Below, one piece after another: positions 29,483-32,879 of a DNA stretch of 39,018 bases. How positions within the stretch are numbered: position 1 is the stretch's first letter; the number at the start of each line of letters is the position of its first letter. The notes under the pieces are model-generated. The model ran no database searches. It was not told the DNA's origin and was given only the letters and a program-made list of their open reading frames with translations. This stretch comes from Actinomycetota bacterium. GTDB taxonomy: Bacteria; Actinomycetota; Acidimicrobiia; Acidimicrobiales; Ilumatobacteraceae. Both the position numbers and the translations under genes were made by a program. The stretch is from the NCBI GenBank assembly GCA_005793785.1, contig SXPW01000115.1, positions 1 to 39,018 of the forward strand. The letters run 5' to 3'.

Positions 29483-30271
29483 TTATTCTACGCGGGCCAA
29501 CTTTGCAGGATCGGTGGACGACGCCGAGCCGAATCGGGGAATCTCCGCGGTCGCCTCCACGATCGTCTCGGTGCGCTTCTTCGTGGCGTAGGTGTTTCGG
29601 TATTCCTGGCCGGTGAGTTCACGGATCTCGAACATCAACTCGTCGGTGACCTCGCGCAACAGCATCGGGTCCGCGGCATGAGCCGAGTAGTGACCCATGT
29701 CGATGGGTCGACCGACCGAAATCTTCACCGTTCCACCCAAGCGCGGCAGTGGAGCATCCGGTGGCTGGATGTCTCGGGTGCCGACGATTCCGACCGGAAA
29801 GATCGGGCAACCCACCTTGAGCGCGAGCCGTGCCGCACCCGTGTGGCCCTTGTACAGCATTCCGTCCCTGCTGCGCGTGCCTTCCGGGAAGATGCCGAAC
29901 AATTCGCCACGACGCAGGACACCTTCGGCTGCGTCGAGTGCGGCGTGCGATTTCTCTCCACCGCTGCGATCGACGGGAATCATCCCCACCTTCGGAAAGA
30001 ACCAGCGCGTCTTCCACGAATCCATGTACTCGCTCTTGCCGATGAACGAGATGTTTCGCGGGGACAACACCATGAGCAGTGCCGAATCGAGGAAACTGAT
30101 GTGGTTGGGGCACAGGATTGCCGCACCGGACTTCGGCAGACGATCGAAGCCGTCGAGTTCGAACCGCCATGCGAGTTTGGCCAGCGGTGCCGCGACGGTG
30201 CGCAACCGCGACTGGAACCGTGTCGCACCGTGGAACACCCACTCCGGGAATTGTCGGGTGTCGGTCACCAT
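29483..30271 (-). CDS. PlsC-like 1-acylglycerol-3-phosphate acyltransferase
   Basis: A 262-residue membrane-associated acyltransferase. Motif I is NHISFLD (NHx4D) and the glycerol-phosphate-binding motif is FPEGTRS. Members convert lysophosphatidic acid to phosphatidic acid, the precursor of CDP-diacylglycerol used by the PI synthase in this run; exact acceptor not proven. ATG at 30271 overlaps mshC by seven bases; the GTG one codon later would overlap by four. The C-terminal 40 residues are polar and not conserved-looking. Downstream thrS follows after seven bases. Confidence 0.88.
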   Translation of the reverse strand: MVTDTRQFPEWVFHGATRFQSRLRTVAAPLAKLAWRFELDGFDRLPKSGAAILCPNHISFLDSALLMVLSPRNISFIGKSEYMDSWKTRWFFPKVGMIPVDRSGGEKSHAALDAAEGVLRRGELFGIFPEGTRSRDGMLYKGHTGAARLALKVGCPIFPVGIVGTRDIQPPDAPLPRLGGTVKISVGRPIDMGHYSAHAADPMLLREVTDELMFEIRELTGQEYRNTYATKKRTETIVEATAEIPRFGSASSTDPAKLARVE

Positions 30272-31416
30272 TCGACTCCCAGCAGTGCCGCAGCCGAACG
30301 AACCTCGGCTCCCTGCGCGACTGCCGCATCGATGGCCTGGACGGCACCCGGAGTGTCGAGATCATCATCGAGATGACGACGAACGCTTTCGAGCACCGCG
30401 TCACCTCCCCTCTCGTCGTTGCCTTGTCTCGGACCCCTTGAGTCAACTGTGGTTGCCATCCAATTGCCAAGCCGTGCCGTTGCCCGGTCGATGAGACCTT
30501 TGTCCCATTCCCACTCGTGGCGGTAATGGTTCATGAGCAAGCCGAGGCGAATCGCGCGTGGGTCGTAGCGCTTGCGGAGGTCGTCGATGAAGACGAGGTT
30601 CCCCCGACTCTTGGACATCTTGTGGCCGTCCATCCACACCATCGCCACGTGCATCCAGTGCTTGACGAAGGCGACCCCCGTTGCGGCCTCAGATTGGGCG
30701 CGCTCGCATTCGTGGTGCGGGTAGATGAGATCCGTTCCGCCGCCATGGAGATCGATCGTGGTGCCGAGTTCCCGCAGGGCCAGTGCGCTGCATTCGATGT
30801 GCCAGCCAGGTCGTCCCGGCCCCCAGATGGTGTCCCACGCCGGCTCGTCGTGGGCCGAAGGTTGCCACAGGACGAAGTCGAGCGGGTGTCGCTTGTTCGG
30901 GTCGTCCACGTTGCCGCCGCGCTCCCGGGCGAGGTCCAACATGCGGGCATCGTCATAGCCCGACACCGATCCGAATTCAGGTGAGCGACTGACGTCGAAG
31001 TACACCGAACCACCCGCCTCGTAGGCGAATCCCCGCTCGAGCACCTTGCCGATGAAGCCACGAATCTCCGGGATTGCCGACGATGCCCGCGGTGTTGCAT
31101 GCATGGGAATGAAGTTGAGTGCCCGAAGGTCGTCCTCGAGTCGTTGCTCCTCGCGCGCCGCGAGATCGAGGTAGTGGACGTTCAGTTCGCGGGCCTTGGC
31201 AAACAGCGGGTCGTCCACGTCGGTGACGTTGCGAACGCATTGCACGGACCTCCCGGTGTCGAGCAGTCGGCGAATGAGCACGTCGTAGACGATGAACGTG
31301 AAGGCGTGACCGAGGTGCGTCGCGTCGTACGGCGTGACCCCGCACACGTACATCTTCACCTCGTTACCGGGCGAGAAGTCGACGATGTCGCGTCGGGCGG
31401 TATCGAAGAGTCGCAC
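30265..31416 (-). CDS. mshC: Mycothiol ligase MshC (Cys:GlcN-Ins ligase)
   Basis: A 383-residue class I synthetase-like ligase that joins cysteine to glucosaminyl-inositol in mycothiol synthesis. It resembles cysteinyl-tRNA synthetase, with [19 protein letters not shown] (zinc Cys25, HLGH at 34-37), [15 protein letters not shown] and [11 protein letters not shown]. MshC is favoured over CysRS because the protein is about 80 residues shorter, lacks the C-terminal tRNA-binding extension, and reads [13 protein letters not shown] and [13 protein letters not shown] as in known MshC. GTG start at 31416, eight bases after the preceding stop. Mycothiol is restricted to Actinobacteria, so this gene also marks the lineage. 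Confidence 0.88.
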
Positions 31417-31424
31417 GCCGGCGG

Positions 31425-32093
31425 CTAATCGATCCCCGTGAATCGCGGCGCAACTCGCGTCTTGTAGCGAACGTTGAGTTGCAACAGCACCGCGGTGAGT
31501 GCCTCGATGGCGAGCGCGTTCGAGAGCAAGCCGGCGTTGAGCGGGCGACAGCCCGATATCCGCGCAACGATGTCGCTCACGGTCTTGGTGGCCGCCGGGT
31601 CGTCGGAGCAGATCAGCACGTCACTATCGACGTCGTGGTCCAGTGCCCCGAGTTCCGTGGCTGGCAGGTGCTGGAATGCCGCGACGACGTTGGATCCCGG
31701 GATGGCGGCTTGCACGTGGGCGGCGATACTGCCGCGCGGCGGAATGAGCGGCTGGAATTCCTTGCCCACTCGAACGAGTGCATTGGCCATCGTGATCACG
31801 ATCTTGCCGCGCAGCGATTCCGACAGTTCCGTCACCGTGGTTGCCGCCGAGTCCCACGGCGTTGCCAGCACGATGATGTCGCACCGCGCAGCCTCCGCGT
31901 TGTCGGCGCCCTTCAACGGCAATTGCTTGGTCGGCCACTTGCGAAGGAGTTCGGCGACGACCTCGCGTCCACGTTCGGCGGTTCGCGATCCGATGACGCC
32001 TGGATACCCGACCGATGCAAGGCGGACGGCGAGTGCACTCCCCGCTGGTCCGGTGCCCCCGAGGTATCCGATGCTCGGAAGTGGCGCAGTCAC
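31425..32093 (-). CDS. F420:NADPH oxidoreductase (NpdG/Fno type)
   Basis: A 222-residue dinucleotide-binding protein of the NADPH-dependent F420 reductase family. It starts SIGYLGGTGPAGSALAVRLASVGYPGVIGSRTAERG, where the GGTGPxGxxLAxRL loop and GSRxAERG are diagnostic. The enzyme exchanges hydride between NADPH and F420, feeding F420-dependent enzymes such as the LLM oxidoreductase. GTG start at 32093 is seven bases after a TACGGT box; a longer open frame upstream crosses the divergent fabI gene and was rejected. It heads the eight-gene run to the PatA-like gene. Confidence 0.88.
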   Translation of the reverse strand: MTAPLPSIGYLGGTGPAGSALAVRLASVGYPGVIGSRTAERGREVVAELLRKWPTKQLPLKGADNAEAARCDIIVLATPWDSAATTVTELSESLRGKIVITMANALVRVGKEFQPLIPPRGSIAAHVQAAIPGSNVVAAFQHLPATELGALDHDVDSDVLICSDDPAATKTVSDIVARISGCRPLNAGLLSNALAIEALTAVLLQLNVRYKTRVAPRFTGID

Positions 32094-32099
32094 GTCCAC

Positions 32100-32106
32100 T
32101 ACCGTA
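32100..32106. promoter_or_regulatory. Shared symmetric -10 box for two divergent leaderless genes
   Basis: TACCGTA reads as TACCGT on plus (32100-32105), six bases before the fabI GTG at 32112. On minus it reads as TACGGT (32106-32101), seven bases before the GTG of the F420 oxidoreductase at 32093. Only 18 bp separate the start codons, so any promoter for either gene must overlap the other coding region or this site. No ribosome binding site fits in the gap for either gene. Confidence 0.6.
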
Positions 32107-32111
32107 GCGAC

Positions 32112-32879
32112 GTGGCGATTCTTGCGGGTAAGCGACTCGTCATCACCGGTGTGCTCACGGATGCGTCGCTGGCGTTCGGAGTGGCAAAGTTGGCCCAAGA
32201 AGAGGGCGCCACCGTGCTGTTGACGGGTGCCGGTCGCGGTCTCTCCATCACCGAGCGCACCGCCAAGAAACTCCCGAGCGTTCCGCACGTCGCGGAGTTC
32301 GACGTGACGAATCCGGAGCACGTCGAGGGCGTTCGTGGCGTCGTCGCAGAACGACTCGGCGGCGTGGACGGGGTGTTGCACTCCATCGGTTTTGCTCCTG
32401 CTGCGTGTTTGGGTGACGATCTCATGGCGGCCACGTGGGACGACGTATCCGTCGCCTTGCAGGTTTCTGCATTCTCCCTGAAAACTCTCGCGGATGCCTT
32501 CGTGCCCCTCATGGGTAACGGCGGGAGCATCGTCGGACTCGACTTCGACAACACCGTCGCCTGGCCGGCCTACAACTGGATGGGGGTGGCCAAGTCGGCC
32601 CTCGAGTCGACCAGCAGGTACCTCGCCAAGGAACTCGGTCCGAGGAACATTCGATGCAATCTCGTGGCGGCCGGCCCCATTCGCACGATGGCCGCCAAGT
32701 CGATTCCGTCGTTCGCCCAATTCGAGGACATCTGGAGCGCTCGCGCGCCGCTCGGCTGGGACATCCACGATTCCACCGCGGTTGCGCGCGCCTGTTGCGC
32801 GCTGCTCTCCGACTGGTTCCCCGCTACCACGGGCGAGATCGTGCACGTCGACGGTGGATACCACGCCGTTGGCGCCTGA
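32112..32879 (+). CDS. fabI: Enoyl-[acyl-carrier-protein] reductase, FabI/InhA type
   Basis: A 255-residue short-chain dehydrogenase that carries out the last reduction of each fatty-acid elongation cycle with NAD(P)H. It is strikingly InhA-like: [28 protein letters not shown] at the start, [10 protein letters not shown], then [30 protein letters not shown] with the Tyr154-x6-Lys161 catalytic pair, and [16 protein letters not shown]. The end [22 protein letters not shown] is also shared. GTG start at 32112 is six bases after the shared TACCGT box. The next gene starts five bases after its stop and may be cotranscribed. Confidence 0.92.

Follow-up and report, generated by a model that had tools for sequence, protein, structure and literature searches.

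Bidirectional promoters built around a symmetric −10 element have been described by Warman, Grainger and colleagues (PMC12825309, PMC10268837). In their commonest class the two transcription starts lie 18 bp apart, with other classes at 10 or 23 bp, and basal firing of the E. coli bidirectional promoters is too low for competition unless one direction is activated (PMC12825309). Start codons of published leaderless genes in actinobacteria are preceded, at about 12 nt, by a TANNNT motif described there for one direction at a time (PMC3160421, PMC3898074). Mycobacterium tuberculosis has juxtaposed divergent promoters, and also a divergent pair, prpD/Rv1129c, for which both mRNAs are leaderless; the sharing of one −10 element by such pairs is not described in the available portion of that report (PMC3898074). 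Across the part of the literature covered, we found no case combining a shared −10 with two leaderless genes, which is weak evidence of novelty.

The locus considered here lies in a window of 39,018 nucleotides (the whole stretch of DNA analysed), contig 80 of a 1.48-Mb metagenome-assembled genome that is 81% complete. As in the described symmetric promoters, the −7T and −11A of opposite directions pair, with hexamers offset by one (TANNNTA); these bases (T32100 A32101 ... T32105 A32106) are invariant in 13/13 species. The −18T/+1A reciprocity of symmetric −10 promoters is absent in the window, and the distance between the predicted starts (32093 and 32112) is 19, against a modal 18 (PMC12825309), because one spacer is 7 nt instead of 6. 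By arithmetic, the E. coli 18-bp and 23-bp classes correspond to the geometries of this locus and of the ANNNTANNNT pairs discussed below (PMC12825309, PMC10268837). Unlike the described symmetric promoters, both products here are predicted to be leaderless, so that each transcript would begin on its start codon and the gap would contain no spare DNA, and comparative data indicate that the architecture is fixed genus-wide. The actinobacterial TANNNT motif, in turn, is found here facing both directions.

The npdG/fabI gap and its two predicted leaderless genes

The 18-bp gap, with both −10 hexamers, and the neighbouring genes are laid out as follows:

32094..32111, no strand: bidirectional core promoter (proposed reading), GTCCACTACCGTAGCGAC; 17 of 18 columns invariant across 13 same-genus species
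32100..32105, + strand: fabI −10 hexamer in the forward direction, TACCGT, 12 nt before the GTG
32101..32106, − strand: npdG −10 hexamer in the reverse direction, TACGGT, 13 nt before the GTG and sharing 5 bp with the forward box
32112..32879, + strand: fabI, enoyl-ACP reductase, predicted leaderless (NF005908 equivalog, E 4.9e-120)
31425..32093, − strand: npdG, NADPH-dependent F420 reductase, predicted leaderless (TIGR01915 equivalog, E 3e-50)
30265..31416, − strand: mshC/cysS-like ligase gene (TIGR03447 and TIGR00435 scores), 8 bp downstream of npdG

GTCCACTACCGTAGCGAC is the entire gap, bounded by cac (32091-32093) on the left and gtg (32112-32114) on the right. A 6-nt spacer separates TACCGT from the fabI GTG, and 7 nt separate TACGGT, read from 32106 to 32101, from the npdG GTG. 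On re-reading, the coordinates and sequence given for the gap by the first-pass annotation, with TACCGTA readable on both strands, proved exact.

Both gene identities are well above threshold: NF005908 scores 400 bits against a cut-off of 299 for the FabI-type enoyl-ACP reductase, and TIGR01915 scores 171 bits against 150 for NpdG. FabI is ~90% identical in relatives labelled Ilumatobacteraceae, Acidimicrobiia or Actinomycetota, on which basis we assign the genome to Acidimicrobiia. The description of fabI as an essential-type gene is plausible. The earlier assignment of the opposite strand to F420, mycothiol and PI genes stands for F420 (npdG, TIGR01915). Its mycothiol component is ambiguous: the ligase reaches 402 bits with TIGR03447 (MshC; cut-off 485) and 347 bits with TIGR00435 (cysS; cut-off 340), and may thus serve either mycothiol synthesis or tRNA charging. 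The gene after it encodes an acyltransferase-like protein. No TANNNT lies 10-60 nt upstream of the ligase gene, which likely belongs to the transcription unit of npdG. thrS is preceded by a Shine-Dalgarno-like sequence of its own and, at 15 nt, by a TANNNT.

The start codons of both genes are predictions, and alternatives were sought on each side. A shifted fabI start was ruled out, since the window holds no in-frame start codon within 120 nt upstream; nor is there a Shine-Dalgarno sequence. For npdG, the sole in-frame alternative, GTG at 32099, was ruled out because only 1 nt separates it from the −10 and because it lacks a Shine-Dalgarno sequence. The position of the 32093 codon is exactly kept across the genus (ATG in 10/13 species, GTG in 3/13). 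Codons 2-12 of npdG contain no ATG, GTG or TTG in any of the 13 species, and the first 12 codons offer no further start other than a CTG at codon 11 in 3/13. GGAG, GAGG and AGGA are absent from both strands of the gap in 13/13 species. A shifted start accompanied by a Shine-Dalgarno sequence, which the first-pass annotation had named among the observations that would tell against its reading, was looked for at both genes and not found. Each gene has a TANNNT, at 12 and 13 nt respectively, and neither has a Shine-Dalgarno sequence.

These spacings are the two commonest in the genome. In a promoter survey with simple gene calling over 1.15 of the 1.48 Mb, and with starts picked without reference to a promoter motif, TANNNT preceded 8.2% of starts at 12 nt (background ~0.3%), 6.0% at 13 nt, 3.4% at 14 nt and 2.6% at 15 nt, compared with ~0.1-1% at other distances; 23% of genes with an intergenic upstream region carry it at leaderless spacing. 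The genome-wide profile prefers C at −1 and G at −5 and has no −35 signal. Because TANNNT peaks so sharply 12-15 nt before starts, we take this genome to make routine use of leaderless promoters that lack a −35; they match those published for actinobacteria in motif, spacing, absent −35 and C at −1 (PMC3160421, PMC3898074). A −35 element in either direction at npdG/fabI was rejected, given the lack of signal in the genome-wide profile and of any sigma70 consensus pair.

Taken together, promoter statistics and comparative data strongly support the original proposal, within what sequence can tell, that one symmetric −10 serves two divergent leaderless genes. RNA polymerase with the housekeeping sigma factor, as we infer, would read the near-palindromic TACCGTA either way, using TACCGT toward fabI and TACGGT toward npdG without need of a −35. 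Transcription would begin 6-7 nt downstream, exactly where each start codon begins, which would leave both mRNAs leaderless and make the entire intergenic region promoter core. One polymerase would presumably exclude the other at the shared −10. The analysis yielded no support for the further proposal of the first-pass annotation, that polymerase orientation sets the ratio of fabI to the npdG operon.

Conservation of the gap within the genus

From one sequence alone the symmetry is cheap: with the forward box given, it needs only one more base, an A in seventh place, and a start codon at the right distance. The case that it exceeds chance is made by cross-species comparison, in which 17/18 columns of the gap are invariant and only 6/205 fourfold synonymous sites of fabI and npdG are. 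The alignment comprises 13 species of one actinobacterial genus from fresh and coastal waters; around the gap, two of these species have identical sequences. Pairwise identity is 0.991 in the gap, compared with 0.46 and 0.42 at the fourfold sites of fabI and npdG, respectively (binomial p ~1e-25 for invariance, phylogeny ignored), and the 17 columns form the longest invariant run of the whole two-gene stretch. We conclude that the 18-bp gap is under strong purifying selection genus-wide, as judged from the alignment.

TACCGTA is found in 13/13 species of the genus, which bears out the heptamer conservation that had been put forward as a check. No other TANNNT within 350 bp, whichever strand is read, is kept in even 5/13 species, which leaves the heptamer as the sole conserved one. 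The symmetry might be a by-product of genome compaction with no reverse promoter function, as short divergent gaps are numerous in this genome and a single base added to a given TACCGT makes the reverse box. This explanation is strongly disfavoured and in our view very improbable: the gap is invariant among species whose synonymous sites are near-saturated, and the symmetry is found only in the genus that leaves npdG no space elsewhere.

GTCCAC and GCGAC, the sequences flanking the −10, are invariant to the same degree, which a −10 alone does not account for; the preferred discriminator bases (G at −5 and C at −1) explain part of this conservation. An imperfect dyad reaches past the heptamer, so the gap could instead, or in addition, be a palindromic operator (GTC-NN-CTAC-C-GTAG-N-GAC) through which one regulator controls both genes, its symmetry serving a protein instead of or besides polymerase. 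The contrast with an ABC/LLM oxidoreductase promoter of the same genome, where the flanks are variable, fits such an operator. The block CAYGTCCACTACCGTAGCGAYGTG (24 bp, both starts included), however, occurs exactly once in each of the 13/13 genus genomes, leaving no regulon visible, and is absent from 188/188 other family genomes; the 18-mer was rejected as a multi-site regulator motif for its single copy per genome. Moreover, both strands show the positions and spacings of leaderless −10 boxes, and other genera retain the fabI −10 but lack the A after it. We regard an operator as unlikely, and it would in any case be compatible with promoter function. The 18-bp gap is, in our assessment, probably a real, selected and minimal bidirectional leaderless promoter.

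Other genera and the symmetric base

Outside the genus, TANNNT lies 12-14 nt before fabI in 61/62 unique sequences, mostly as TACCGT or TACGGT and usually at 13 nt. The base that follows is C, T or G there, with A in 0/61, while A follows in 13/13 within the genus. In ordinary intergenic leaderless promoters of the surveyed genome an A right after the −10 is rare (6/140 versus ~29 expected, p ~4e-8). TANNNTA also appears depleted genome-wide (88/2,140 TANNNT), but codon usage could produce this, so we left that count out of the argument and relied on intergenic promoters only. An A that is ordinarily disfavoured after the −10 and fixed here is best explained by a reverse promoter, in which it is the first T. 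The symmetric state represents one evolutionary event, so 13/13 versus 0/61 should not be read as 74 independent observations.

Elsewhere in the family, npdG mostly starts ~7 codons further in (ATGCGC, adjacent to codon 8), with a wider gap to fabI, and the N-terminal extension of ~7 residues is genus-specific; the symmetric base thus accompanies the collapsed gap. In some genera outside this one npdG has promoter-like elements of its own, TATCGT or TAGCGT ~8 nt before ATG. The likely course, whose order is our reconstruction, is that in the genus ancestor the spacer holding npdG's own promoter in other genera disappeared. npdG would then have taken an upstream start codon, yielding the 7-residue extension, and adopted the −10 of fabI, whose following base became A.

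Three further features of the family were observed. AGCCTTACACA, which is TGTGTAAGGCT on the npdG strand, is conserved a few nt upstream of the npdG start in several genera (L019-L112); TGTGTAAGGCT departs from the TANNNT pattern and may represent a regulator site, an extended −10 or an element for an alternative sigma factor. Across most of the family (L003-L112), A/C-A-C stands before the fabI −10, so that the sequence reads ACTACSGT, an extension that does not appear in the general leaderless profile. In a few relatives (L024, L031, L054, L067, L095) npdG lies downstream of fabI and is not divergent, which means that the gene pairing too has undergone rearrangement.

The presence of TGTGTAAGGCT upstream of npdG in some genera bears on a further possibility, that fabI alone uses the promoter and npdG is transcribed with a 5' leader from a non-consensus or alternative-sigma promoter inside fabI, the reverse box being incidental. 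About three quarters of the genome's genes likewise lack TANNNT at leaderless spacing. Yet such an arrangement would leave unexplained why the position-7 A is fixed across all 13 species when ordinary −10 boxes disfavour it and other genera lack it; in addition, no second reverse TANNNT is conserved within 350 bp, and the region upstream of npdG has no Shine-Dalgarno sequence. We therefore consider it quite improbable.

Overlapping −10 boxes elsewhere in the genome and their meaning

With motif-aware starts, overlapping opposed −10 boxes occur in 8/132 divergent pairs of the surveyed part of the genome; motif-free starts give 4 divergent pairs. The seven pairs besides npdG/fabI share the TA of ANNNTANNNT and have gaps of 22-27 bp (L136:3428-3450, L219:6905-6927, L234:14540-14563, L215:5293-5317, L122:5299-5326, L182:2289-2316, L228:8757-8784). 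They include cofC/gpsA, rpe/rlmD-like and ABC/LLM oxidoreductase, so that two F420 genes, cofC and an LLM oxidoreductase, are found among them. The displacements −1 and +4 are enriched in divergent pairs partly since they need fewer fixed bases, and this enrichment is therefore not independent proof.

Most of the genus retains the decamer between the ABC and LLM genes, with variable flanks. In this genome the F420-dependent LLM oxidoreductase lies opposite an ABC ATPase/permease pair followed by purH (L219:5143-6928). In at least two species (L259, L260) the ABC genes are absent and purH abuts the LLM promoter, with the 22-bp gap and the AGRCTAGGTT decamer unchanged, so that this symmetric promoter has exchanged one partner gene for another. 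Tentatively, minimal bidirectional leaderless promoters could be a recurring building unit of streamlined Acidimicrobiia genomes, with neighbours obligately coupled by polymerase competition, although we lean against so general a claim. A gene would be captured by, or swapped onto, a symmetric −10 by means of a start codon 6-7 nt away, as may have happened to npdG here and, opposite the LLM oxidoreductase, to purH or an ABC transporter gene.

At the npdG/fabI locus, the symmetric −10 appears to be the sole promoter that can be recognised for the two protein-coding transcription units, and the evolutionary evidence points to selection on the symmetric base. The genus that has the symmetry and the other genera that lack it offer a natural comparison for what symmetry does. 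If the bidirectional reading holds, the gap would show to what size the regulatory region of two genes can shrink, and would illustrate a route by which a gene may lose its own promoter and take up that of its neighbour.
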